Positions 1,066-59,025 of a DNA stretch of 64,000 bases are shown here, in pieces (the stretch's first letter is position 1; every line of letters begins with the position of its first letter). The stretch covers positions 30,471,201 to 30,535,200 of the forward strand of contig NC_069136.1 of the NCBI RefSeq assembly GCF_026914265.1. The letters are read 5' to 3'. Made by a program: the position numbers and the translations under genes. The stretch comes from Mya arenaria. Taxonomy: Eukaryota > Mollusca > Bivalvia > Myida > Myidae. Under the pieces are notes generated by a model that was not told the DNA's origin, ran no database searches, and saw only the letters and a list, made by a program, of their open reading frames with translations.

Positions 1066-3915
1066 CTGGCTGGGATGTTATGATGCTTTAACCTTAAAAC
1101 AAGCAAGGGGGCCATAGCGAACTATGTCAGCGTGTAGCCGAGACCTAGTCCTAGGTGATAGTACATATGAATTACCTAGGATTTAAGGCAGGCTATGCGA
1201 GATAGGGACAAGGAAAAGGGTCCCAATCCCTATTTGCCTCATATTCATTACATGTTATGGTGCAGAAACCTTAAAACCAGCAAGGGGGCCACAGCAACCT
1301 ATATCAGCGTGTGGTATAGACCTTATCCTAGGTGAAAGTACATATGAACTACCTAGGATTTTAGGCAGGGTATGCGAGATAAGGACATGATAAAGGCTCC
1401 CAATGCCTATTTTTACCTCATATTCATTAAATGTTATGGTGCAAAAACCTTCAAACGAGCAAGGAGACCATACCGACCTATGTCAGCGTGTATCTTAAAC
1501 CTAGTCCTAGGTGATAGTACATATGAATATTTAAGATTTTAGGCAGACTATGCGGTAGAGGAACATGGAATAGACCCCCAATATATATTTGCCGCATAGC
1601 CATAAACTTGTTATGGCGCGAAAACATTAAAACGAGCAAGGGGACCACAGCGACATGTGTCACCATGTAGCCGAGACCAAGTCCTAGGTGATAGTACATA
1701 TGAATAACATAGGATTTTAGGCACGCTATGCGAGATACGTATATGAAAAAGGCTCTCAATGCATATTTGCCTCGTATTAATTACATGTTATGGTGCAGAA
1801 ACCTTAAAACGAGAAACGGGACCAAAGCGACCTATGCCACCATGTAGCAGAGACCTAGTCCTAGGTGATAGTACATATTAATAACGTCTGATTTTAGGCA
1901 GGCTATGCGAGAAAGGGACGTTGAAAAGGCTCCCAGTGTATATTTGCCTCATAGTCATTACATGTTATGGTGCAGAAACTTTCGAACGAGCAAGGGGACC
2001 ATAGCGCCCTATGTCAGCGTGTAGCTTACACCTAGTCCTAGGTGATAGTACATATGAATTACCTAGGATTTTAGGTAGGCTATGAGTGATAGGGACATGA
2101 TAAAGGCTACCAATGCATATTTGCCTCATATTCATTACATGCTATGGTGCAAAAACCTTAAAACGAGCAAGGGGACCAAAGCGACCTATGTCAGCTCGTT
2201 GCTCAGACCTAGTGCTAGATGATAGTACATATGAATTATCTAGGATTGTAGGCAGGCTATGCGATATAGGGACATGGAAAATGGCCTCTTATGCCTATTT
2301 GCCTTATTTTCATTACATGTTATGGTGAAGAAAACTTAAAACGAGCAAGGGGACCATATAGACCTATGAGAGTTTGTTGCTTAGACCTAGTCCTAGGTGA
2401 TAGTACATATGTATTACCTAGGATTTTAGGCAGATTGTACGAGAAAGTGACATGGAAAAGGCTCTAAATGACTATTTTTACCTCATATTTATTAAATGTT
2501 ATGGTGTAGAAACCATAAAAAACAAGGGGACCATAGCGACCTATGTCAGCTCGTTGCTTGAACCTAGTCCTAGATGATAGTACATATGAATTACCCAGGA
2601 TTTTAGGCAGGCTGTGCGAGATAGGGACATGAAAAATGCTGCCAATGCCAATTTGCCTCACATTTATTGCATGTTATTGCGCAAAAACCTTAAAACAATT
2701 AAGGGGACCAAAGTGACCTATGTCAAGATGTAGCTTAGACCTAGTCCTATGTGATAGTACATATGAATCACCTAGGATTTTAGGCAGGCTATGCGAGATA
2801 TGGACTTGGAAAAGGCTCGCGATGCCTATTTTTACCTCATATTCACTAAATGTTACGGTGCAGAAACCTTTAAACGAGCAAGGAGACCATACCGACCTAT
2901 GTCAGCTTGTTTCTTAGACCTAGTCCTAGGTGATAGTACATTTGAATAACATAAGATTTTTGGCAGGCTACGCGAGATAGGGACATGGAAAAGACTCCCA
3001 ATGTATAATTGTCTAATATTCATTACATGTTATGGTGTGGAAACCTTAAAACGAGCATCGGGACCATATCGACCTTTGTCATCATGCAGCCGAGACCTAG
3101 TACTAGGTAATAGTACATATGAATAACCTAGGATTTTAAGCATGCTATGCGAGATAGGGACATGGAAAAGGCTCCCAATGCATGTTTGATTCATATTATA
3201 TACATGTTTTGGTGCGGAAACCTGATAACGAGCAAGGTGACCAAAGCGACCTATGTCACCATGTAGGACAGACCTAGTACTAGATGATAGTACATATGAA
3301 TTATCTAGGATTTTAGGCAGGCTATGCGAGATAGGGACATGGATAATGCTCTCAAGGTCCATTGTCCTAATATTCATTACATGTTATTGTGCAAAAACCT
3401 TCAAACGAGCAAGGGGACCATACCACCCTATGTCAGCGTGTAGCTTAGACCAAGACCTAGGTGATAGTACATATTAATTACCTAGGATTTTAGGTAGACT
3501 ATGGGTGATAGGGACAACATGGAAAAGGCTCCCAATGCCTATTTTCCTCATATTCATTACATGTTATAGTGCAAAAACCTTAAGACGAGCAAAGGGACCA
3601 TAGCGACCTATGGCAGGTCGTTGCTTAAACCTTATCCTAGGTGATAGTACATATGAATTACATAGGATTTAAGGCAGATTGTGCGAGAAAGTGATATGGA
3701 AAAGGCCCCAAATGGCTATTTTTAACTCATATTCATTAAATAGTACGGTGCAGAAACCTTAAAACGAGCAAGATGACAATAGTGACCTATGTCAGCTCGT
3801 GGATTAAACCTAGTCCTATGTGATAGTATATATGTATTACCAGGATTTTAGGCAGGCTATGCGAGAAAGGGACATGGAAAAGGCTCCAAATCCCTATTTG
3901 CCTCATATTATTACA
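1066..3915 (+). repeat. 177-bp satellite array, copy 1
   Basis: About 16 head-to-tail monomers of roughly 177 bp. Landmarks in each monomer are aaaccttaaaacgagcaagg, gacctagtcctaggtgatag, gtacatatgaattacc, taggattttaggcaggctat and gcgagatagggacatgg. Neighbouring monomers differ by roughly 10-20 %, far more than the 7.55-kb copies differ from each other, so the array is older than the segmental duplication. Each monomer has the palindrome CCTAGTCCTAGG and a later CCTAGGATTTTAGG. No coding potential; the short open frames are periodic by-products. Confidence 0.92.
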
Positions 3916-4215
3916 TCCCAGCAAGCAAGGCTAAATGGGTCCCATATGGGCTGAATCTGGGCAAAAAGCCCATATGGGGCCCATATAGGACCCATATGGT
4001 TGAGAATGCCCAGATGGGACCCAGATGGGACCCATATAGCTGTTCATCTATATTGATTGGATATACAAAGGGAAACGAAGATCATTGTTATATGAAAATA
4101 TGTAAACATCGATACTATGTGAAAAAAGTTCATTATTTCATGAATCGGATTCACATCTTTTGACATGATATGCCCCAGATAGGTCCCATATGGGTCCCAT
4201 ATACTCGGCATTATC
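3916..4215. repeat. GGGACCCATATGGGTCCC palindrome block, right
   Basis: Begins with catcccagcaagcaagg and continues with CCCATATGG-type words to about 4055, then about 100 bp of ordinary sequence and a last pair of gggtcccatat words near 4200. It faces the left block in inverted orientation, so palindrome block, satellite and palindrome block look like one composite element. Copy 2 is at 11467-11766. Confidence 0.75.
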
Positions 4216-4741
4216 ATTATAGTAGGGCAGTGTTAGATGGTAAGGCACGATGTTGTGGCGATGATACATAAATACACAAGGAAAAAATATTTTTCCGTAT
4301 TTTCATTTTTTTATTACTTCTTAAATATAAACCTTTTGCAATTGTGTTTTTAGTAGCAATTTAGTCACGAATAAAAAAAAATATGCAGAAAAAATTGTCA
4401 CGTGACATTTTATAGACGCGCGGATGATGAACGTGATTGAGTGAAAAAATAATGGTTAAATTCATCTTTTAAGAACAGGTAAGGGTTCTTATTTAACTTT
4501 TAAAGCAACTTGTATTTATATTTATAGTAATTTGATTTTAAACAAGTGAATTACTGATGAATTTCTTGTAGAAGTATTGTTTGTGCTACGATTTTGTATT
4601 TTGTCATATAATTTCGCGATAATATATAAATTATAAAGTAAAGGCATTCGGGATGGCAGATGCCAAAAACAAAACAAAACTAAATAAAAACAACGGCAAA
4701 TTAATGGTTCATGCAGGTGTGGGGAACCTATTTACATATAG
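4216..4741. other. Spacer upstream of DUF4806-like gene
   Basis: AT-rich. It contains a 36-codon open frame from ATG at 4652 (MADAKNKTKLNKNNGK...) that ends at 4759 and does not join in frame to the exon at 4742. It could hold the promoter and 5' exon of the gene, including a possible donor at aacag|gtaagg near 4479, but no start could be fixed. Equivalent stretch: 11767-12292. Confidence 0.4.
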
Positions 4742-6147
4742 ACCTCCAAAGAGATTTTAACATTCTTTTCTCTTGAATGGATTCTGACAATCATTAATCT
4801 TTTATCCAATTTAAAAGTGCACCAAGGATCGAGGCTGTACGAGGATATGAGCCAGGGTGCCACTGATGCTAATGGTGATGATGAGGATGATGGCCTTGTT
4901 ACAGTCAAGACCATTACCCCCCAACATTCCAGCTACCTGTTCATTATTCGATGCTCGGCAGAGCAGAATCCAAAAAGGTAAATAGAAAATGTTAATGGAA
5001 TGTAGTATGGTTTTCATAATTGAACCTTGCATCTTTTTATTATTATAAACATTAACAAACAGCCAATCACATTATTGGTTTAATGGTTCACTGTTTATTA
5101 CCTGAAGTGTCTTGTTTCAATTTTTATTTTTGACAGAATGTTATTTGTTCCAGATCAGGACACCTGGATCTTTGTGATTTTGGAAAACCAGCAGGAGCAA
5201 TTGCGATAACATACGCAGCTCCTGCGTCTCATCCTGGCGAGAGATTCAGCACAAGATGCAGGTCCGAGTGAGTTGCCAGAGGAGATATCTTTCCCCCTCA
5301 AAACTGTGGTGGATTTGGCAGCCTTCAAAGAGCGAAAGTCACAAGCGAATGCTGCAACATCCATTGTAAGTTTCCCAAACATAGTTGACTGACATTTTTT
5401 ATGAGGTGTCTTTAAATTTAAAAATGCATAATTTGAGCTTTAAAATTACATTTTGAAGTGACATTATTCATTTAAGTTTGTTTTTGAAATGTGATCTGAT
5501 ATTATCAATATAAGGGCAGGCACACAAACTGAGCCAGTATAGGTGGCGCTGACAGTGCTTCAAATTTTAATATTTAATTGTACCACATTGAGTGTGATAC
5601 TATGGTTCTGCTTGAAAGTTTTTGCTGTTTTGCATTTATATGTGGATTTACAGGCATTTTCATGCACAACTTTTTGTTCAAGGTAAAAAACTTGGCAGAA
5701 TATGGTGGGAGTGACACAGTGGACACGTTTTCCCCGGATAATGAAGACGGTGTTGACAACAAATCTGGCCCGCCAATACAACCTAAAGGAAACCAAACAA
5801 AAAAAGAAACTGGACAGACTCCACTTGATAAACATCTTTTTCAGTAGGTGGTTTTGTTGTTGTATATATTAAGGTGTGCTAAATGAAACTACCTATGCTG
5901 TGCATATACATCAATGGATTTAAAAAAAAATATAACTGAGTATTAGTGTTAAAAAATAACAAACTTTTTAAGATAACTAAATTTATCTGCCTAGCTAAAA
6001 TTACCATAGATAGTTGACGATAAAATGCTGCTTATTTATTACTAAACATTTGATAATCACTTTGATGAAATAACTGTCTCAGATATTCATCTATCCACTA
6101 ACACTATTTACAGGATGTCAATAATTGAACCCAGCAACACACTTTAG
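4742..6147 (+). pseudogene. DUF4806-like spliced gene, copy 1, broken
   Basis: Four exons can be proposed with GT-AG borders and agreeing phases: 4742-4977, 5137-5365, 5683-about 5848 and 6114-6147. Exon 1 is acidic (TDANGDDEDDG). Exon 2 starts at a possible ATG (5138) and has LPEEISFPLKTVVDLAAF, close to the start of the DUF4806 domain, usually FPLKT plus a leucine-rich helix. Exon 3 begins VKNLAEYGGSDTVDT and should continue as in copy 2. Two defects are visible. An in-frame TAA at 5207-5209 in exon 2 is shared with copy 2. One extra base near 5730-5737 (gttttcccc here, ggtttccc in copy 2) shifts exon 3. The family's function is unknown, and the domain name is from memory of its pattern. 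A short C-terminal exon (MSIIEPSNTL then stop) is inferred. Confidence 0.6.
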
Positions 6148-7477
6148 AACCGCAAGGAAATGGAGGGGGCCATATAGAAGTGGCTTTCCGAGTCGCGGAG
6201 TCGTGAGGTTGGCCGCAAAGACCGAGCAAGAGTCACCCCGATGCTTCCTTCAGTAGAATGTTGACTTATTTACTTACCATAAAATTTACGATTCCACGAA
6301 CCACGAACATACGGATTTACAACTCAGAATTAAACCAGCAAAACTTGTCAGACTATTTTTCAAATTGATAGTATACAATAAGTATGCTTCTATTGTTTTA
6401 TCATAAACACATCAATGTCGTGTGACATGTTATGTAGTTTGTATGCAAAATGTATCACAATAATGTAATAATGAGATATCTCCAACTTTTCCCCTAAATT
6501 TTCATATCATTAAGGGCTTCAAGAAGAGCATTTCTTATCTATATTTATAGGCAAATCCATGTTGCTTTTACTTTTTTGTATAAACATAAGACAAACTGTC
6601 CATGACTAATAAGAGACCCATCAACAAGACAAATATATTTAGTTCACATTTGGATGATTGTTCTAAAGAAGACTCTTAATAAGCGAAACCTGTTGACATT
6701 GAATAATTATCATAATATCTCGGAATGATGTCAGTTTTTGTTTTACTATAATATTTTCTTATCCTGGGTACACCATTTTAAACTTTGATACACTCAAAAT
6801 AAACTTATTTTAAGATGAAGTAAGAAATTTGGCTGAATGAAATAAGCTACTTAAGGGTGTTACGCTTAAGAACTTTCGAGAAATTGGGGCCAGATGACTT
6901 TAATTATATCAACCCCATTTATTTCCCTGGCGATAACAGTGATCCCAGATTTGTATATGGTAGATACATATTTAACCTATGGATTGAGCGTGTATATATT
7001 AATAAATTCTTCTTGATATACAACAATGAATCAGGTCTAAATGATATAATTTTATTATGTAAATATTTGTTATACAAATGTAACTTATATGCTGTTGCTC
7101 TACTTTTGTTTCATATGTATTTTGTAATGTAACTCAACATACATGGAGGAAATAAGGATATATATATGTTTTAACATTCAGTCATGTCAGTTCACTAGTC
7201 AGTATTACAAGGTGCATTAATTGTGTTAGTCAATAGCTCTGGTTTGTGTTTAATTTTTTCTCCTTTTAAATTCTTTTTTATTTTACATGTATGATTTTTG
7301 TGATTGAATCCAATGTACCAATGAACTTGAAACTGTTATTTCATTTCTGGTTTGAAACGCTGCTTTATGTCTAAGCAATATTGTTATACTTGAATGTGTA
7401 GATGCACTCCATGCTCTGTTTATTAGAATTGTGCGTCTTTCGATTAGTGTATTTTTTTTTAAACACATTCGTTAAAG
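6148..7477. other. Unit spacer, no gene supported
   Basis: AT-rich region between the decayed gene and the next MITE. A 91-codon frame at 6857-7132 starts at GTG, not ATG, has no recognisable domain and is rejected. Near 6662-6705 a stretch (ttctaaagaagactcttaat, gcgaaacctgttgac) looks like a dispersed-repeat fragment. Same sequence at 13698-15027. Confidence 0.5.
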
Positions 7478-8616: not shown

Positions 8617-11466
8617 CTGGCTGGGATGTTATGATGCTTTAACCTTAAAACAAGCAAGGGGGCCATAGCGAACTATGTCAGCGTGTAGCCGAGACCTAGT
8701 CCTAGGTGATAGTACATATGAATTACCTAGGATTTAAGGCAGGCTATGCGAGATAGGGACAAGGAAAAGGGTCCCAATCCCTATTTGCCTCATATTCATT
8801 ACATGTTATGGTGCAGAAACCTTAAAACCAGCAAGGGGGCCACAGCAACCTATATCAGCGTGTGGTATAGACCTTATCCTAGGTGAAAGTACATATGAAC
8901 TACCTAGGATTTTAGGCAGGGTATGCGAGATAAGGACATGATAAAGGCTCCCAATGCCTATTTTTACCTCATATTCATTAAATGTTATGGTGCAAAAACC
9001 TTCAAACGAGCAAGGAGACCATACCGACCTATGTCAGCGTGTATCTTAAACCTAGTCCTAGGTGATAGTACATATGAATATTTAAGATTTTAGGCAGACT
9101 ATGCGGTAGAGGAACATGGAATAGACCCCCAATATATATTTGCCGCATAGCCATAAACTTGTTATGGCGCGAAAACATTAAAACGAGCAAGGGGACCACA
9201 GCGACATGTGTCACCATGTAGCCGAGACCAAGTCCTAGGTGATAGTACATATGAATAACATAGGATTTTAGGCACGCTATGCGAGATACGTATATGAAAA
9301 AGGCTCTCAATGCATATTTGCCTCGTATTAATTACATGTTATGGTGCAGAAACCTTAAAACGAGAAACGGGACCAAAGCGACCTATGCCACCATGTAGCA
9401 GAGACCTAGTCCTAGGTGATAGTACATATTAATAACGTCTGATTTTAGGCAGGCTATGCGAGAAAGGGACGTTGAAAAGGCTCCCAGTGTATATTTGCCT
9501 CATAGTCATTACATGTTATGGTGCAGAAACTTTCGAACGAGCAAGGGGACCATAGCGCCCTATGTCAGCGTGTAGCTTACACCTAGTCCTAGGTGATAGT
9601 ACATATGAATTACCTAGGATTTTAGGTAGGCTATGAGTGATAGGGACATGATAAAGGCTACCAATGCATATTTGCCTCATATTCATTACATGCTATGGTG
9701 CAAAAACCTTAAAACGAGCAAGGGGACCAAAGCGACCTATGTCAGCTCGTTGCTCAGACCTAGTGCTAGATGATAGTACATATGAATTATCTAGGATTGT
9801 AGGCAGGCTATGCGATATAGGGACATGGAAAATGGCCTCTTATGCCTATTTGCCTTATTTTCATTACATGTTATGGTGAAGAAAACTTAAAACGAGCAAG
9901 GGGACCATATAGACCTATGAGAGTTTGTTGCTTAGACCTAGTCCTAGGTGATAGTACATATGTATTACCTAGGATTTTAGGCAGATTGTACGAGAAAGTG
10001 ACATGGAAAAGGCTCTAAATGACTATTTTTACCTCATATTTATTAAATGTTATGGTGTAGAAACCATAAAAAACAAGGGGACCATAGCGACCTATGTCAG
10101 CTCGTTGCTTGAACCTAGTCCTAGATGATAGTACATATGAATTACCCAGGATTTTAGGCAGGCTGTGCGAGATAGGGACATGAAAAATGCTGCCAATGCC
10201 AATTTGCCTCACATTTATTGCATGTTATTGCGCAAAAACCTTAAAACAATTAAGGGGACCAAAGTGACCTATGTCAAGATGTAGCTTAGACCTAGTCCTA
10301 TGTGATAGTACATATGAATCACCTAGGATTTTAGGCAGGCTATGCGAGATATGGACTTGGAAAAGGCTCGCGATGCCTATTTTTACCTCATATTCACTAA
10401 ATGTTACGGTGCAGAAACCTTTAAACGAGCAAGGAGACCATACCGACCTATGTCAGCTTGTTTCTTAGACCTAGTCCTAGGTGATAGTACATTTGAATAA
10501 CATAAGATTTTTGGCAGGCTACGCGAGATAGGGACATGGAAAAGACTCCCAATGTATAATTGTCTAATATTCATTACATGTTATGGTGTGGAAACCTTAA
10601 AACGAGCATCGGGACCATATCGACCTTTGTCATCATGCAGCCGAGACCTAGTACTAGGTAATAGTACATATGAATAACCTAGGATTTTAAGCATGCTATG
10701 CGAGATAGGGACATGGAAAAGGCTCCCAATGCATGTTTGATTCATATTATATACATGTTTTGGTGCGGAAACCTGATAACGAGCAAGGTGACCAAAGCGA
10801 CCTATGTCACCATGTAGGACAGACCTAGTACTAGATGATAGTACATATGAATTATCTAGGATTTTAGGCAGGCTATGCGAGATAGGGACATGGATAATGC
10901 TCTCAAGGTCCATTGTCCTAATATTCATTACATGTTATTGTGCAAAAACCTTCAAACGAGCAAGGGGACCATACCACCCTATGTCAGCGTGTAGCTTAGA
11001 CCAAGACCTAGGTGATAGTACATATTAATTACCTAGGATTTTAGGTAGACTATGGGTGATAGGGACAACATGGAAAAGGCTCCCAATGCCTATTTTCCTC
11101 ATATTCATTACATGTTATAGTGCAAAAACCTTAAGACGAGCAAAGGGACCATAGCGACCTATGGCAGGTCGTTGCTTAAACCTTATCCTAGGTGATAGTA
11201 CATATGAATTACATAGGATTTAAGGCAGATTGTGCGAGAAAGTGATATGGAAAAGGCCCCAAATGGCTATTTTTAACTCATATTCATTAAATAGTACGGT
11301 GCAGAAACCTTAAAACGAGCAAGATGACAATAGTGACCTATGTCAGCTCGTGGATTAAACCTAGTCCTATGTGATAGTATATATGTATTACCAGGATTTT
11401 AGGCAGGCTATGCGAGAAAGGGACATGGAAAAGGCTCCAAATCCCTATTTGCCTCATATTATTACA
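8617..11466 (+). repeat. 177-bp satellite array, copy 2
   Basis: The same 16 monomers in the same order as at 1066-3915, including their private variants. The whole array was therefore copied with the 7.55-kb unit and was not expanded again. Confidence 0.92.
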
Positions 11467-11766
11467 TCCCAGCAAGCAAGGCTAAATGGGTCCCATATGG
11501 GCTGAATCTGGGCAAAAAGCCCATATGGGGCCCATATAGGACCCATATGGTTGAGAATGCCCAGATGGGACCCAGATGGGACCCATATAGCTGTTCATCT
11601 ATATTGATTGGATATACAAAGGGAAACGAAGATCATTGTTATATGAAAATATGTAAACATCGATACTATGTGAAAAAAGTTCATTATTTCATGAATCGGA
11701 TTCACATCTTTTGACATGATATGCCCCAGATAGGTCCCATATGGGTCCCATATACTCGGCATTATC
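11467..11766. repeat. GGGACCCATATGGGTCCC palindrome block, right (copy 2)
   Basis: Copy of 3916-4215. Confidence 0.75.
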
Positions 11767-12292
11767 ATTATAGTAGGGCAGTGTTAGATGGTAAGGCACG
11801 ATGTTGTGGCGATGATACATAAATACACAAGGAAAAAATATTTTTCCGTATTTTCATTTTTTTATTACTTCTTAAATATAAACCTTTTGCAATTGTGTTT
11901 TTAGTAGCAATTTAGTCACGAATAAAAAAAAATATGCAGAAAAAATTGTCACGTGACATTTTATAGACGCGCGGATGATGAACGTGATTGAGTGAAAAAA
12001 TAATGGTTAAATTCATCTTTTAAGAACAGGTAAGGGTTCTTATTTAACTTTTAAAGCAACTTGTATTTATATTTATAGTAATTTGATTTTAAACAAGTGA
12101 ATTACTGATGAATTTCTTGTAGAAGTATTGTTTGTGCTACGATTTTGTATTTTGTCATATAATTTCGCGATAATATATAAATTATAAAGTAAAGGCATTC
12201 GGGATGGCAGATGCCAAAAACAAAACAAAACTAAATAAAAACAACGGCAAATTAATGGTTCATGCAGGTGTGGGGAACCTATTTACATATAG
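11767..12292. other. Spacer upstream of DUF4806-like gene (copy 2)
   Basis: Copy of 4216-4741; no start exon could be fixed here either. Confidence 0.4.
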
Positions 12293-13697
12293 ACCTCCAA
12301 AGAGATTTTAACATTCTTTTCTCTTGAATGGATTCTGACAATCATTAATCTTTTATCCAATTTAAAAGTGCACCAAGGATCGAGGCTGTACGAGGATATG
12401 AGCCAGGGTGCCACTGATGCTAATGGTGATGATGAGGATGATGGCCTTGTTACAGTCAAGACCAACACCCCCCAACATTCCAGCTACCTGTTCATTATTC
12501 GATGCTCGGCAGAGCAGAATCCAAAAAGGTAAATAGAAAATGTTAATGGAATGTAGTATGGTTTTCATAATTGAACCTTGCATCTTTTTATTATTATAAA
12601 CATTAACAAACAGCCAATCACATTATTGGTTTAATGGTTCACTGTTTATTACCTGAAGTGTCTTGTTTCAATTTTTATTTTTGACAGAATGTTATTTGTT
12701 CCAGATCAGGACACCTGGATCTTTGTGATTTTGGAAAACCAGCAGGAGCAATTGCGATAACATACGCAGCTCCTGCGTCTCATCCTGGCGAGAGATTCAG
12801 CACAAGATGCAGGTCCGAGTGAGTTGCCAGAGGAGATATCTTTCCCCCTCAAAACTGTGGTGGATTTGGCAGCCTTCAAAGAGCGAAAGTCACAAGCGAA
12901 TGCTGCAACATCCATTGTAAGTTTCCCAAACATAGTTGACTGACATTTTTTATGAGGTGTCTTTAAATTTAAAAATGCATAATTTGAGCTTTAAAATTAC
13001 ATTTTGAAGTGACATTATTCATTTAAGTTTGTTTTTGAAATGTGATCTGATATTATCAATATAAGGGCAGGCACACAAACTGAGCCAGTATAGGTGGCGC
13101 TGACAGTGCTTCAAATTTTAATATTTAATTGTACCACATTGAGTGTGATACTATGGTTCTGCTTGAAAGTTTTTGCTGTTTTGCATTTATATGTGGATTT
13201 ACAGGCATTTTCATGCACAACTTTTTGTTCAAGGTAAAATACTTGGCAGAATATGGTGGGAGTGACACAGTGGACACGGTTTCCCGGATAATGAAGACGG
13301 TGTTGACAACAAATCTGGCCCGCCAATACAACCTAAAGGAAACCAAACAAAAAAAGAAACTGGACAGACTCCACTTGATAAACATCTTTTTCAGTAGGTG
13401 GTTTTGTTGTTGTATATATTAAGGTGTGCTAAATGAAACTACCTATGCTGTGCATATACATCAATGGATTTAAAAAAAAATATAACTGAGTATTAGTGTT
13501 AAAAAATAACAAACTTTTTAAGATAACTAAATTTATCTGCCTAGCTAAAATTACCATAGATAGTTGACGATAAAATGCTGCTTATTTATTACTAAACATT
13601 TGATAATCACTTTGATGAAATAACTGTCTCAGATATTCATCTATCCACTAACACTATTTACAGGATGTCAATAATTGAACCCAGCAACACACTTTAG
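12293..13697 (+). pseudogene. DUF4806-like spliced gene, copy 2, one in-frame stop
   Basis: Proposed exons: 12293-12528, 12688-12916, 13234-13397 and 13664-13697. The exon 2/3 join is phase 0 and gives a continuous DUF4806-like segment. FPLKTVVDLAAFKERK is followed by YLAEYGGSDTVDTVSRIM, KTVLTTNLARQYN and a lysine-rich tail before LINIFFS. The exon 3/4 join is phase 2 and leads to a stop after about 11 residues. Unlike copy 1, the domain frame in exon 3 is intact. The exon 2 frame still has TAA at 12758-12760, between LENQQEQLR and HTQLLRLIL, as in copy 1. Either both copies descend from a dead gene, or translation begins after it. Exon 1 differs from copy 1 by two adjacent bases (ATT to AAC, Ile to Asn). 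Confidence 0.6.
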
Positions 13698-15027
13698 AAC
13701 CGCAAGGAAATGGAGGGGGCCATATAGAAGTGGCTTTCCGAGTCGCGGAGTCGTGAGGTTGGCCGCAAAGACCGAGCAAGAGTCACCCCGATGCTTCCTT
13801 CAGTAGAATGTTGACTTATTTACTTACCATAAAATTTACGATTCCACGAACCACGAACATACGGATTTACAACTCAGAATTAAACCAGCAAAACTTGTCA
13901 GACTATTTTTCAAATTGATAGTATACAATAAGTATGCTTCTATTGTTTTATCATAAACACATCAATGTCGTGTGACATGTTATGTAGTTTGTATGCAAAA
14001 TGTATCACAATAATGTAATAATGAGATATCTCCAACTTTTCCCCTAAATTTTCATATCATTAAGGGCTTCAAGAAGAGCATTTCTTATCTATATTTATAG
14101 GCAAATCCATGTTGCTTTTACTTTTTTGTATAAACATAAGACAAACTGTCCATGACTAATAAGAGACCCATCAACAAGACAAATATATTTAGTTCACATT
14201 TGGATGATTGTTCTAAAGAAGACTCTTAATAAGCGAAACCTGTTGACATTGAATAATTATCATAATATCTCGGAATGATGTCAGTTTTTGTTTTACTATA
14301 ATATTTTCTTATCCTGGGTACACCATTTTAAACTTTGATACACTCAAAATAAACTTATTTTAAGATGAAGTAAGAAATTTGGCTGAATGAAATAAGCTAC
14401 TTAAGGGTGTTACGCTTAAGAACTTTCGAGAAATTGGGGCCAGATGACTTTAATTATATCAACCCCATTTATTTCCCTGGCGATAACAGTGATCCCAGAT
14501 TTGTATATGGTAGATACATATTTAACCTATGGATTGAGCGTGTATATATTAATAAATTCTTCTTGATATACAACAATGAATCAGGTCTAAATGATATAAT
14601 TTTATTATGTAAATATTTGTTATACAAATGTAACTTATATGCTGTTGCTCTACTTTTGTTTCATATGTATTTTGTAATGTAACTCAACATACATGGAGGA
14701 AATAAGGATATATATATGTTTTAACATTCAGTCATGTCAGTTCACTAGTCAGTATTACAAGGTGCATTAATTGTGTTAGTCAATAGCTCTGGTTTGTGTT
14801 TAATTTTTTCTCCTTTTAAATTCTTTTTTATTTTACATGTATGATTTTTGTGATTGAATCCAATGTACCAATGAACTTGAAACTGTTATTTCATTTCTGG
14901 TTTGAAACGCTGCTTTATGTCTAAGCAATATTGTTATACTTGAATGTGTAGATGCACTCCATGCTCTGTTTATTAGAATTGTGCGTCTTTCGATTAGTGT
15001 ATTTTTTTTTAAACACATTCGTTAAAG
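13698..15027. other. Unit spacer, no gene supported (copy 2)
   Basis: Copy of 6148-7477; nothing gene-like. Confidence 0.5.
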
Positions 15028-24051: not shown

Positions 24052-25380
24052 CTAAGACAATGTATTTGTAGACCGTTTTACTTTAAGTATCCATTTACAA
24101 AATCGTTTTTGCACTCTTTCCAAGCACTCATATTTCCCAAATCCCCAAACCTCCGATCCATAATTAAGTATAGACACAACATATGAGTCAAACAGATTAA
24201 ACATAATTTTAACTGGAACAATTGTATCTTTTACAATAGAAAATAAGCCATTCATTGATCGAAGAGCTTTTCCAGTTTTAGCTGCTTGAGCAAAAGAACG
24301 ACCGGACGCTAGTACTACACCTAGGTAATTAAAAGAGTTAACTATTTCAACATCGACACCGGCATATTTCCATTTGTCAGTTCGCGAAAGTCTACCACAT
24401 TTTTTGAAGACAACATTTTTAGTTTTCTCAACATTCACTGTGAGTTTCCAACGATTACAATACGTTTCCAGTTGATCAAGTGATTCCTGTAAGCCTTCTT
24501 TTGATTCGGATATTAGAGCGGCATCGTCAGCAAACAACAATAGGTAAATATTAAGTTCATCAATGGTGAGCCCGGCGTTGGTTCCTTGTTGCAAATGTAA
24601 CTCAATGTCATTTAAAAATAGGGAAAAACAGACCGGGGAAGTTATCTCCCCTTGAAATAATCCGACATTACTATCAAAGAAATCAGACAATGTACCTACA
24701 TGTTTAACACATAGCTTCACTTCTTCGTACATTGAGCGTAACAGAGCCAAAAATTTACCATCGACTCCTGATTTTATTAATTTATACCACATCCTACTCC
24801 TATCAATGCAGTCATATGCTTTTTTAAAGTCAACAAAACAACAGTATAACTTCTGTTTAGAATTTAACTGTCTTTGAATCAGCCAGTGTAAAATAAAGAT
24901 AGGATCAACGGTACTGTAATTATTTTTAAAGCCAAATTGAGCATCAGTGAGAACATCATACTCTTTAGTCCATTCTTTAAGCCTCTCGTTTAAAATAACT
25001 GTAAATAATTTCGCAAAGCAACTGATCAACGTAATCCCCCTATAATTATTGGGATCCGACTGATCGCCCTTTTTATATACAGTGATTGTTGCACCGTTAG
25101 CCCAGGACTTAGGGAATGTTTCCATATCAAGAATGGTATTGAAAAATAAATGTAAGGGCTTAATCAAAATCGGGACACTGGCTTTAAAATACTCATACAA
25201 AATATTTTTAATGGAACATGCCTTGTTATTTCCAAGTTTACTAATCGCCTTCAATATTTCTTCTTCACTTATAGATCTATCCAAACAGTCAAAGGTAGGT
25301 GAATTGCTATCATTATTTCTATCAAAATCAGATAAAAATTCAGAGCTAAAATCCTCGTTATCATTCTGCAAACCAGACAT
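24052..25380 (-). pseudogene. LINE reverse transcriptase
   Basis: 442 codons with the RT blocks in order. YKKGDQSDPNNYRGITLIS lies at about 105-123, AQFGFKNNYSTVDPIF at about 148-163, and the first catalytic aspartate in CCFVDFKKAYDCIDR near 185. NVGLFQGEITSPVCFSLFLN is near 240, and LLFADDAALISE, with the paired catalytic aspartates, near 283. The C-terminal 'thumb' has NSFNYLGVVLASG and ILNYGSEVWGF. The catalytic residues are present, but the protein ends early in NTLS because of a frame change, and the endonuclease is absent. It is a dead copy used here to place the element. Confidence 0.85.
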
Positions 25381-25577
25381 AAGCCCTTCGAAATATACCT
25401 TAAAATCCTCATTTGAGATACTATCGCCTGTCTGACTTTTGGCTTTTAATTTAAAAAGTTAAAGCACGTTTTTGTAGAACTTCCAAAATATGTTCACTGA
25501 GCATATATCCATTAACAGTCTTAATCGCGTGAATATACTTTATATTACGACTCTATTCAATATCACTACGGGGCCTA

Positions 25578-34388: not shown

Positions 34389-35011
34389 AAAATTTGTAGT
34401 AATGTAGTGGAACTATTTCCATGAAGTAGTCAATATTGGCGAAATGATTTATCAATATAAATATTTGATTTCAGTACCAATTGTCAATAAATTATACATG
34501 ACCCACTTCTCCCACTATTCGCCCAGACATTTTAGAAAAAAAAATATGTAACAATCACTTTAAATCAGCTGTGTATTCAAAACAATGATGAGAACTATTT
34601 ACTGAGCGCACTGGCGTTCTTTGGCTTGTAGTTTGCTCGGCTGATGTGCCTACTTAGGACGGGCCCTGAGGGGCACCTTCCACGTCCAAAAATTATCTAC
34701 CTGAATCATTATGGGTCGAATTAAAATACAAAAATGAATGTTATCTAATAGGGACTATATATCGCAATCCTCATTTAACAATTGATTTTTGGGATAGAGT
34801 CAACATTTGCCTAAACAAGGCACGTGATTTCTGTAGCAATATCATTGTTTTTTTTTGAGATCTCAACGAAGACCAACTCAATCCTCTAAACCGAAAGTTT
34901 CGAGATATCATGGCATTAAACAATTTACGTAATGTCATAGATACTCCAACTAGAATAACGACCTCTACGCAGACTTAATTAGATCCAAATGCAGTTTCTC
35001 ACCACATTAAT

Positions 35012-36295
35012 GTGTTAAATTCAGGCATTTTTGAAACACCCCAACACATGAGCGACCATTATTGTGCCAATGGCTATATAAAAAGCAGTTATTCTACTAG
35101 AAATAGTATCACCAGAAAGGTATGGAACTATAAACAAGCCGATTTTAATAAAATGAATGGACTTATAAGAACCACAGACTGGACCTATTTGAATAACGGA
35201 CATATCGATGACGCTACAAATAATTTTACAAAAACATTTATAGATATCGCAGAGAAATGTATCCCTACATACTTTGCAACAATTCAATATTCAGATAAGC
35301 CGTGGTATAACTCCGAAATCAGAAAATTATCCAATACACGTGATAAATTAAAAAGCAAAGCTACTCGATCAGGTCATTTGCGTGACTGGATCGAATATAA
35401 AAGGGTTAGAAATATAGTTTCAAATATGACTAAACACGCAAAAGAACTCTTCTTTAGTAACCTTGAGGGTAAACTTACGGAGTTTAATTCATCAAATCCA
35501 CGTCTTTACTGGAAAACTGTCAGAATACTAGTTAAACAAAACAGTGGTAAAGAAAATGCAATACCGCCACTGAAAAACTTAGACAATTCTTACTCATTTA
35601 ATGATTCGGAAAAGGCAAGTTCTCTTAACGATTTTTTTGTTTCCATTTCGAATGTAGACGACGTTAATGTACAATTACCCAATTTACGAATGAAGACGAA
35701 TAGCGAATTAAGTCATATTGATATTACTGACACTGAAATAAAAGACGTCCTTGACAACTTAGACATAAATAAGGCAAGTGGTCCCGACGTAATTAGTCAT
35801 AGAATGCTTAAAAATACTTCATCCACTATTTGTATTCCTCTACGTATTATCTTTAATAGATATATTCGAGAATGTATATATCCAACAAGATGGAAACTTG
35901 CAAATGTAATGCCTCTTTATAAAAAGGGTGACCGTACTTTGGTGGCTAACTATAGACCTATTTCGTTGATAAATTGTGTGGGAAAGGTAATGGAACGAAT
36001 TATTTTTAAACACATGTACAATTATATGCACCATAACAACCTCATTTACAAGTATCTGTCGGGTTTTATTCCTGGTCACTCAACGGTGTATCAACTTATT
36101 GATATATATCACCAAATTTGTAAATCATTCAATGACAAACAGTCAACAAGCATTGTATTTTGTGACATATCTAAAGCGTTTGACAGAGTTTGGCATCGTG
36201 GTCTCATATTTAAACTCCAAGAATACGGAATTTCAGGAAATGTACGAAGATGGTTATCACATTATCTTCTTCATAGGTCTCAGCGTTTTTTTTAA
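35012..36295 (+). pseudogene. LINE 2 ORF2, endonuclease end to mid-RT
   Basis: 427 codons, the longest open frame of the element. It holds the end of the endonuclease region, a linker (KPWYNSEIRKLSNTRDKLK, ASSLNDFFVSISN) and RT blocks through FCDISKAFDRVWHRG, which carries the first catalytic aspartate. It ends at SQRFF; one base more in the T-run would continue into [14 protein letters not shown] and LFADDSS (36330-36440) in the next frame. The upstream GTIYRNP and DLNED pieces at 34745-34880 belong to the same protein. Confidence 0.85.
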
Positions 36296-53367: not shown

Positions 53368-53452
53368 AGTCGCTGTCTATATTGTCCATTCGACACTGTC
53401 ATGGCCGCATCTCTGGGGTCATCTCTGAATCCATCCAACCAAGAAAAAGGTC
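53368..53452 (-). CDS. Internal exon of the same gene
   Basis: 85 bp between acceptor atttttcag and donor gtaaaaaa, reading PFSWLDGFRDDPRDAAM then TVSNGQYRQRL. It enters in phase 1 and leaves in phase 2, matching both the mini-exon at 56402-56443 (leaves in phase 1) and the exon at 53050-53179. The plus-strand frame at 53219-53428 is its shadow. Confidence 0.6.
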
Positions 53453-55471: not shown

Positions 55472-56225
55472 ACAAGAGATGTCACAGAGACAGAGCGCTC
55501 GGCTATTCCGCTGCTTTTCAGTGTAAGGAATGAAGAGTTTTGGCGAAACATGCATGGATCACTGTAAAATTAGATAAGAATGATGCCTGCGAAGATTTGT
55601 GAAAAATTTAAAAACATTCAGCCTTTAATGAAATACAGACTTGATGGAAATACCAGGCAATACATTAAAGGATTATAGGTTGTATACAATAATATTCTAA
55701 GGCCAAAAATAAAGGGCCATTATTTGCAATATACAGTTATCTAACTTGGTTATTCCAGTAGGTTGGGTGGTTAAGTATTTTGTATAAAGTCTCAATACAA
55801 TACATCAACTAGTTGCTGAGATGCTATTTGTGCTAACATGCAAAACCTTTACCTGAATTCCTAAGTCGCAAATTAAAGGGGCAAAATTTATATAACATGC
55901 AAGATAGAGTTATCTTACTTGATTTATTAAGAAGATTGAATGATTGGGAGCCTGTGTTAAAAGTTTCAATGTAATACATAATGTGTTGCTGAGGTATTGA
56001 CTTAAAAGTGGTAACCTTGACCAGAATTTCTATGTCACATAAAAAGGGCCATTATTTGAATGCAACTAGAGTTATCTTATTTGGTTATTTAAATAGATTG
56101 GATGGTTGAGTACAATTGTATAAAGACTCAATGCAATACATCAAATTGTTGCTGAGATATTTACCCACGTCAGCTTACATGCAATACCTTAACCAGAATC
56201 TCTAAGTCAAATAATAAAGGCCCAG
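55472..56225 (+). repeat. Dispersed repeat 'aacaagagctgtcacagag', short copy
   Basis: Starts tacaagagatgtcacagaga and has the same internal units as 27774-28685, but stops at ataataaaggcccagt without the usual attcttcgaatagtcgagct end. Confidence 0.75.
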
Positions 56226-56375
56226 TTGAGCTAAAATGGCTTTCTATACATAATGGAACACCATTAGTATCAGTGGTCACCAATGCTGTCAATGTTGTAT
56301 TTTCTGGGTACTTTTTGTATAAATAATGAAAGGAAAGCTGAAATGCTGGAGTTCTGGCAGTGTTAACTAGCCTGA

Positions 56376-56696
56376 AAATTGATAGATTAACCGAGACTTA
56401 CCTTCGTAGAGGGGAAGTTGAAGGTTGATCGGAATTTCATCTACTGCAAACCCCTTAAGAGCTCAACACGAGAGAGACACGCAGTTACCGCAGCCGAAAT
56501 ATTCAGGTTTTTAGAGAAAGCAAGGGTTTCCACCAAATCCTTGCAGTAAATGTTGAATTTGAAGAAAACTAGACATGAATTTAGGGTGGGTTCAGGGTGG
56601 GCGTGTTGAGCTCTTAAGGGGTTTGCAGTAGATGAAATTCCGATCAACCTTCAACTTCCCCTCTACGAAGGTAAGTCTCGGTTAATCTATCAATTT
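56376..56696. repeat. Perfect 95-bp inverted repeat with 131-bp spacer
   Basis: 56376-56470 and 56602-56696 are exact reverse complements over 95 bp, checked letter by letter. The outer ends are aaattgatagattaacc and ggttaatctatcaattt; the inner ends are gagctcaacacg and cgtgttgagctc. Just outside the right arm a weaker third version follows (aatttcatcactgcataacc, ccacacgagag), so the arm sequence existed here before the inverted copy was made. No target duplication was seen. Each arm contains a 42-bp mini-exon with its splice sites. Confidence 0.95.
56402..56443 (-). CDS. 42-bp mini-exon in the left palindrome arm
   Basis: On the minus strand: acceptor ggtttgcag, exon encoding (V)DEIPINLQLPLYE, donor consensus gaag|gtaagt. 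It enters and leaves in phase 1, which fits the exon at 53368-53452 (leading to GPFSWLDG). The identical sequence on the plus strand is at 56629-56670. The 2.9-kb intron between contains a SINE and a dispersed repeat. Confidence 0.5.
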
Positions 56697-57980
56697 CATC
56701 ACTGCATAACCCCGTAAAGAGCCCCACACGAGAGTTTAGAGCGTTTTCTGCAAATTTACTTCAAAACAAACAAAAAAATTACACCAATTTAGGGTTACAT
56801 ATACATTTATTTACATACATGCTTAATATGCATCACATAACACAGCACATATTAAATAGACACTGACCAATGCCTATGACAGTCGCTGTTCAAGTGTTGA
56901 AACCAAAGCTGTTTAAGTCCCCAACATTAAAGCCGTTTGAATTCTTTTTCTAACTTTTTTAATAAAAGTCCTTTTCTTTATTGAATATTAAGAGTCAAAT
57001 AAAAGGAATTGTATAGGTATGTTTTAACATCAAAGTATGTTTTTCTCAATTCTTTTCTATCATATGGCTAATGAGATACTTAAATGACTTAAGATGCTTT
57101 ATGAATAACGCCCCGTTTGTGAATATATCATATTCAAAATGTTACAAATATTAGTTTAGTCAAGACATAGCTTGATATACGTGTATTATAATCTTGTTGA
57201 GGAGGAACAATGTTGGGGATATAATACTGGAATATGGTATATGGTATTTTTGGCATTTCCAGAAATGATTTTTTTAAGAAATGTTTTTTTTTTTGCTTTG
57301 AGTCAGTGACGCACTAGAAACACTTCAGGCTGTTTATTTAGGATGTATTATGATGTTAGCATGTAGGCCTACAATTGTACAGATTTAAAACATTTTATGA
57401 ACATAACGTCAATAGTATCATCCTACTTCCGTTGGTGGCATATGTCTTTACATAATTCACTTGTTTTCATATAAATCTCAAGGTGATAATATATTATGTC
57501 ATGACGAATACATGTACAGTGAATTAAACAGTGTCCTTGTAAAAAGTATTCCTGGGCTTATATCCTTGCCACATTGCTCTGTAAAAATGTAGAATTAAAA
57601 ACACTGATTCATGCCATAGTGGTGACTATTCCGGATATATATACCAGTTCAATAGGTAAGATAATTCACAATAATCTTATGAAAATTCTGTTCTCCAAAC
57701 GACTCAAACACAACGTTACCTAAAACCATAAAACTTGTAGGCTATGTTACTCTTCACTAACATGACCCTGTTTATCAAAGGTAAAATTCACAGCCAGCAG
57801 TGTCATGAAACAGTTCAAGCCGCAGTTCAATGTTTGTTATGTTTAATCACTGTAAAAACAGGACCTTTATTCAATCGTAAACATATTCTGACAAGGAAGG
57901 ACTTAGCCAGCATTGTTTTACTTCATTTTCTTGTAACGATTTATAACACGCATTCGCATCATATGTCTTTCCGATTCTTC
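56697..57980. other. Intergenic or intronic, no exon seen
   Basis: AT-rich; nothing recognised. The 110-codon frame at 57744-58076 runs into the next MITE and is rejected. Confidence 0.4.
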
Positions 57981-58604: not shown

Positions 58605-58862
58605 TTCGTGCGCACAACATACTAAGTCGAGCGCAAGAGATAATATGTCGTGCGCACGAGTTACTTATATGTGGTGCGCACGAGTTACTAAGTCGTGCGC
58701 ACGAGATACTTAATTCGTGCGCACGAGAAACTATGTCGTGTGCACGAGTTACTTTGTCGTGCGCACGAGTTACTTACTCGTGCACACGAGATAATTAAGT
58801 TGTGCGCACGAGATACTATGCCGTGCGCACGAGTGACTAAGTCGTGCGCACGAGATAATTAG
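58605..58862. repeat. 21-24-bp minisatellite on TCGTGCGCACGA
   Basis: Twelve units of a 12-bp perfect palindrome, tcgtgcgcacga, each followed by a variable gttactaag, gatactatg or gataatta spacer. Because the core is self-complementary, the array can extrude as a row of small hairpins. The 71-codon open frame across it is periodic and not a gene. Confidence 0.92.
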
Positions 58863-59025
58863 CCAATCAGAATACACTTTACATACATGAATGTTGTTTG
58901 AAAATGGCTGATAGCAGAAACGATTTTATTCTCTCATATTTAATCTAGGGTAAACGTATGAAGAAATTCGGTTTCTTTTAGGCGATCAGCATGATATACA
59001 CTTATCACTTTGACATTTACATAGA

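Follow-up and report, generated by a model that had tools for sequence, protein, structure and literature searches.

A 64,000-nucleotide stretch of the genome of the bivalve Mya arenaria (the whole stretch is referred to here as the window) contains a long palindrome whose two arms each carry what looks like a very short exon with both splice sites. This raises the question of whether the locus belongs to the splicing of a host gene or is a structure of some other kind. A sequence-only reading of this DNA had described identical 95-bp arms, and in the whole window positions 56376-56470 and 56602-56696 are complementary at 95/95 nucleotides (100%), with 131 nt between them. It had placed in each arm an acceptor, a 42-bp open stretch and a donor; both arms hold TTTGCAG, 42 nt and GAAG/GTAAGT. 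It had also proposed that a transcript would fold into a 95-bp duplex, and a single RNA fold of the palindrome predicts just this duplex, at -197.5 kcal/mol (z -30; equally stable shuffles, 0/100). As to what the palindrome is, our analysis of the sequence indicates that the feature is almost certainly what is left of a DIRS1-like retrotransposon on the minus strand: the right end, running from 56847 down to 56377, of a dead copy that has lost its 5' part. Its parts are given in Table 1.

Table 1. Predicted parts of the DIRS1-like right end, with window positions. ICR, internal complementary region (lICR, left; rICR, right); rE, right extension.
Feature	Position	Strand	Remarks
End of the tyrosine recombinase ORF, last 7 codons (AVLCDAY) and TAA stop	56823..56846	-	Same reading in L069 and L071
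Cut-off point of the DIRS copy	56847	.	Other repeat family from 56847/56848 (L014-L018)
lICR	56692..56734	-	Complementary to the element's left terminus; 43/43 identical to the left terminus of L080
Circular junction AAT(T), overlap of lICR and rICR	56692..56695	.	
rICR, the right-hand palindrome arm	56602..56695	-	
Spacer from rICR to right inverted terminal repeat (palindrome loop)	56508..56601	.	
Right inverted terminal repeat	56433..56507	-	56433-56470 inside the palindrome, 56471-56507 outside
rE, outermost 56 bp of the right terminus	56377..56432	-	Left termini start level with 56433 to 56436
Left-hand palindrome arm, the element's right end (rE and first half of the right inverted terminal repeat)	56377..56470	-	
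GGTAAGT, 5'-splice-site-like, 25 bp from the right terminus	56396..56402	-	Recurs in divergent DIRS families of the genome
ICR copy of GGTAAGT, opposite strand	56670..56676	+	
42-nt 'exon' of the sequence-only reading	56402..56443	-	Length and acceptor not conserved

Searches of the window's own 1.216-Gb genome revealed that the palindrome stretch is a dispersed repeat found on many contigs (75 first-look candidates, 40 of them scored). The copies that reach the right end mostly share one edge, AATTGATAG (window 56377), with different flanks outside, and some copies are truncated short of this edge. The end of the element most likely lies at 56377 and not at 56376, which would make the true arm 94 bp long, because the ICR arms have a uniform start (AAATT or AAATC in 25/25) while the first letters of the terminal arms are variable (AAA in 5/30); base 56376 is probably flanking sequence that matches by chance.

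On the inner side, longer copies extend past the palindrome into minus-strand sequence coding for a tyrosine recombinase. The minus-strand translation in one of them (L036) reads ...KPHSTRSASTSKAHKGGVALPQILKRAGWSNARTFQKFYLKDMD..., with close relatives in other copies. Copies in which the ORFs are longer lie near C4:55967791-55973091, C9:30834000-30838780 and C6:47153580. The Phage_integrase domain (PF00589) was detected in a 188-aa piece of L072 (3e-12) and in L077 (1.7e-7), and a SAM-like N-terminus (PF13495) in L072 (6.7e-7). Upstream on the same strand, the one copy tested (L078, which continues L044 and has it as its 3' part) gave a match to a reverse transcriptase (RVT_1, PF00078; 2.5e-11). 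Neither RNase H nor methyltransferase had a Pfam match in the broken ORFs tried; some motifs picked out by eye in the element ORFs are presumably RNase H-like and methyltransferase-like. Since only seven recombinase codons are left in the window copy, its identity rests on these longer copies. Beyond the level of 56847, three copies (L011-L013) go on into recombinase-coding sequence, unlike L014-L018. In one copy both ends are present, at a distance of 4.7 kb (C3:41352050-41356747), and a second, with the outermost part of its right end missing, spans 5.1 kb (C14:14683415-14688504). A locus of about 270 bp (L064, C4:1543029-1543298) has a left and a right terminus with no ICR match between them, and is a putative minimal internal-deletion derivative.

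If the window holds the right terminus and the ICR of a DIRS1-like element, the sequence past the right-hand arm must complement the left terminus. The predicted left-terminus sequence was set down beforehand and was found by the next genome search, carried out with 56680-56847; the prediction was not blind, partial matches having already been visible. Besides right-end copies, this search gave ten short matches ending level with 56733-56735, nine of which were compared with their flanks (C8:35583737 was omitted as an apparent duplicate of C8:38073117). The edge carries TTTCATC in 8/9 loci, mostly preceded by one or two A's, and the sequence before it differs; in the ninth locus (L071) the first bases are altered. 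Compared with 56692-56734, the left terminus of L080 is identical at 43/43 positions, and the others match at 38/42 to 47/53. All nine left termini also align to window 56433-56507, as inverted terminal repeats: L080 is the best, with 70/77 alignment columns identical, and the other eight range from 59/77 to 66/74. The two ICRs, the longer of 94 bp, overlap at the trinucleotide of an AAT(T) junction. A complete copy would be expected to have the termini AATTTCATC... and ...CTATCAATT.

The layout is close to that of molluscan elements already described. Table 3 of PMC3266345 has five of them, and for four (AcaDIRS1, AcaDIRS2, LgDIRS1 and LgDIRS3) it gives an AAT junction, ICRs of 39-45 and 86-88 bp, a divergent inverted terminal repeat (ITR) of 30-36, a conserved ITR of 31-36 and an rE of 48-49 bp. 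The corresponding sizes in the window element are 43 (lICR), 94 (rICR), 38 + 37 (ITR) and 56 (rE), with junction AAT(T). It resembles these four elements in the AAT junction, an ITR split into a divergent and a conserved half of similar size, a right extension, paired ICRs of ~40 + ~90 bp, a length of ~5 kb and a tyrosine recombinase, but has a longer rE (56 vs 48-49 bp) and rICR (94 vs 86-88); the likeness is structural only, by the published lengths and junction. The fifth element in the same table, LgDIRS2, is a poorer match, with an ATT junction, a conserved ITR of 141 and ICRs of 46/67. Dictyostelium DIRS-1, as described in PMC3266345 and PMC5633606, also has ITRs, an ICR complementary to both ends, a right extension and a tyrosine recombinase; it differs in its much longer conserved ITR (304 bp) and in its junction, given as TAA for DIRS1-2 (PMC3266345, Table 3).

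The sequence-only reading took the identity of the arms to mean that the inverted copy is recent or kept alike by gene conversion. The perfect match of the window copy is not exceptional among copies: arm differences elsewhere are 2/88 (L031 and L045) and 2/78 (L039). We compared arms in 13 two-arm copies, leaving out the duplicates L030 and L050 and keeping one outlier (L044, at 33/86, whose terminal arm is truncated). With this outlier included, the mean arm distance was 0.077 within a copy, versus 0.152 between the termini and 0.141 between the ICRs of different copies. At the columns that distinguish subfamilies, both arms had the same letters in 16/19, and the exceptions, three columns, involve subfamily D, represented here by one copy. 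When each terminus was paired with the ICR of the same copy, the distance sum was 0.998, against a random mean of 1.84, and a sum as low was reached in 0/20,000 shuffles. The two arms change in concert.

In the model put forward for DIRS1-like elements (PMC3266345), the ends of the new DNA pair with the ICRs, making the circular junction. By analogy, the ends of a new DNA copy of the element described here would pair with the internal copies to give a circle with an intact junction (here AATT); the circle, a step that we carry over from the literature, would then integrate through the tyrosine recombinase without target duplication. Terminus and internal copy would be matched at each insertion and drift apart afterwards. 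The arms would then be alike because this type of element keeps its terminus and its ICR alike. Of the earlier explanation, then, the parts that stand are that a copying process keeps the arms alike (the 16/19 columns and the shuffles above) and that a transcript would form a long duplex. The identity of the arms does not in itself point to an inversion that happened locally and very recently, and there is no need to invoke ongoing conversion, as L030, the duplicate 403 kb away, already shows one arm difference. The palindrome illustrates clearly that likeness between arms can come from a copying mechanism and not from recent duplication. The duplicate lies in a pair of regions, C15:30527100-30528500 and C15:30930177-30931559, that are 98% identical, palindrome included, and reflect either a segmental duplication or a retained haplotype.

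We then considered GGTAAGT, the donor-like part of the arms, in other DIRS elements of the same genome. Forty-seven loci (L083-L129) were examined; they were picked by eye for similarity to the recombinase C-terminus and not for the motif, they represent part of the recombinase matches listed (lists of 24 and 83), and 40 of them were added after the motif had been met in L085. Long arms, defined as an inverted repeat scoring 30 or more behind the recombinase, were present in 28/47. Among these 28, GGTAAGT occurs in at least one right-end arm in 25 and in both arms in 22, and the loci lacking it (L103, L106 and L109) form one family (K). Of the 19 loci that have no long arms, 12 contain GGTAAGT or its complement at some point in the stretch (in L083, not at a DIRS end), and 7 do not. 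Elsewhere in the arm the families are very different from one another, yet GGTAAGT stays in place, ~25 bp from the terminus (26 bp in family H).

A genome-wide pattern that did not ask for GGTAAGT gave 152 matches. Among the 100 matches listed, a score cut set apart 52 DIRS-type rows, one of which was assigned by eye to the other repeat family of the same list; the motif is present in 47 of the 51 that remain. In these 47 rows among the matches listed, the distance of GGTAAGT from the AATT end is 25 bases (44 rows) or 24 bases (3 rows). We also aligned 11 family representatives, which were chosen for having GGTAAGT and are therefore 11/11 at the motif columns by construction: positions +8, +12 and +16 are also invariant, +10 and +13 nearly so, and the motif is preceded by A/C-A-G in 9/11. 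The portions of the DIRS literature consulted, including those of PMC3266345, PMC2685390, PMC9210276 and PMC5633606, contain no mention of this motif that we could find, and the published sequences may show it. For other species, one pattern run on viral contigs found no such terminal motif.

Two readings of the conserved block can be proposed. The first, for which we see roughly even chances, is that the recombinase or a host factor binds DNA at GGTAAGTNTCGTTTAAT, whose likeness to a splice donor would be incidental. It would explain why the conserved block extends past the donor, as far as about +16, and why its distance from the recombination point hardly varies. Because the conserved block is longer than a splice donor needs, we regard a DNA-binding role as at least as likely as one in splicing. 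A symmetric recombinase site would, on the other hand, have an inverted counterpart of GGTAAGT in the left termini, and by eye there is none.

The second reading, which we put forward tentatively, is that GGTAAGT in the right extension may function as a 5' splice site in DIRS transcripts that continue beyond the end of the element. Its fuller form is, if anything, still more tentative: a 5' splice site conserved at a nearly fixed place, inverted in the ICR by replication, from which RNA running past the end would splice out. Such RNA would be spliced to a host exon or, across a head-to-tail or circle junction, to the gag leader of the next unit. Consistent with a donor are the motif in the arms of 25/28 long-arm loci picked by their recombinase, its presence in 47/51 DIRS-type rows among the 100 listed of the 152 matches to the motif-blind pattern, and the A/C-A-G before it in 9/11 representatives (these chosen for the motif). 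The leaders of two families also show donor- and acceptor-like sites before gag: GTAAGT lies ~170-230 nt from the left terminus in L078 and L079 (family B) and in L134 and L136 (family E), and a pyrimidine-rich AG stands just before the gag ATG in L079, L133 and L136. A leader intron is thus possible in families B and E. Moreover, a head-to-tail pair exists (L097/L132, contig C1, near 24811236), in which the right end of one DIRS family is joined directly to the left end of another, AATT being shared, an arrangement that places a terminal donor upstream of the leader of the following unit.

Several observations weigh against a splice donor. The invariant +8, +12 and +16, and the nearly invariant +10 and +13, go beyond what a donor needs; family K has long arms without GGTAAGT; and across the compared families no conserved acceptor partner was found. 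The leader of family G is without such a donor, and in one copy of family E (L133) the leader donor is missing through a deletion. Poly(A) signals show no pattern either: the window copy has an AATAAA after its recombinase stop, and AATAAA or ATTAAA is present in 5/7 family representatives, but also in 84 to 404 of 500 shuffles. With these signals not clearly enriched, the idea that the terminal donor suppresses the element's own poly(A) signal, in the manner of U1, found no support and was discarded.

Were GGTAAGT to work as a splice donor, the transposon end would be a built-in RNA-processing signal, and a strong donor would be planted on both strands wherever an element inserts; host genes would then gain new donors steadily from DIRS elements, and one stage in the making of DIRS RNA could be put to the test. 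Exons derived from DIRS have been described in TMPO/LAP2alpha and ZNF451, where, according to PMC4495291, an exon arose from the gag ORF and is supported by peptides. In those genes DIRS1-like sequence is the host exon; here just a motif near the terminus is seen.

Could the arms nonetheless serve a minus-strand host gene, as an alternative exon or as a natural switch of its splicing, with the splice sites hidden by the palindrome? On paper the sites and the phase fit and a strong hairpin would form, the support being the letters of the sequence themselves, but we consider this very unlikely: the sequence is present at many unrelated loci, and the 'exon' is preserved in neither length nor acceptor. 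We examined 47 of the 55 arms of the family (8 arms of 6 duplicate loci were dropped), finding GGTAAGT in 37/47, GCAG at the acceptor place in 46/47 and both in 36/47. In these 36 arms the acceptor-donor distance is 42 nt in 23, 41 in 11, 40 in 1 and 27 in 1. Since one subfamily mostly has 41 nt, no reading frame is kept in the 'exon'. Among the distant DIRS families compared, TTTGCAG persists in family I, where it lies 30 nt from the donor, and is absent from the corresponding place in families E, F, G, H and J. A host cassette exon would show a conserved acceptor, donor and frame; here the donor is conserved, and the acceptor and the length are not.

The sequence-only reading had further proposed that, on the minus strand, the phase fits the exon at 53368-53452. 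The arithmetic is right, the 42 nt being open in frame 2 only. In the matching frame, though, 53368-53452 reads PFSWLDGFRDDPRDAAMTVSNGQYRQRL and runs to a stop, so that it looks like a last exon, which argues against a splicing switch, and a phase match is expected by chance roughly 1 in 3 times. A search for the host gene of PFSWLDGFRDDPRDAAMTVSNGQYRQRL had no match among solved structures. The proposed host exon or switch was therefore not borne out, the arms being a multi-copy DIRS1-like ICR and right terminus. As its donor half, GGTAAGT, is widely shared, this part of the observation may still have a meaning in splicing, for the transposon and not for the host gene.

The dispersed short copies with inverted arms might also suggest that the 95-bp arms are the terminal inverted repeats of a MITE or foldback DNA transposon, a reading whose probability we regard as negligible and which is refuted by the longer copies, as the right-hand arm is internal and followed by recombinase-coding sequence, and a separate, different left terminus exists in place of inverted repeats at both outer ends. 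A Ngaro/PAT-like element was likewise rejected, since it requires split direct repeats and the repeats here are inverted. The palindrome exists as described, and it is an ordinary component of an element type already known, the right terminus of a DIRS1-like retrotransposon with its ICR. A near-perfect palindrome that contains splice-like motifs can be a normal part of how a transposon is built.

Across the whole window, Rfam had no match at gathering scores (in 56200-56900, just three weak sub-threshold matches), and no tRNA genes were found. Four ORFs of 1478-7132 recur letter for letter in 9029-14682, 7550-7551 bases on (pairs 1478/9029, 3030/10581, 3852/11403 and 6824/14374), apparently an identical tandem duplication of ~7.55 kb or an assembly duplicate. 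Positions 55700-56340 contain repeated units with spacings of 162-173 and 336, and similar sequence is found on many contigs. An array of 21-22-bp units based on TCGTGCGCACGA, itself an inverted repeat, occupies 58605-58882. Finally, long open frames at 24052-25458 (minus strand) and 34979-36295 (plus strand) appear by eye to be LINE reverse transcriptase-like.
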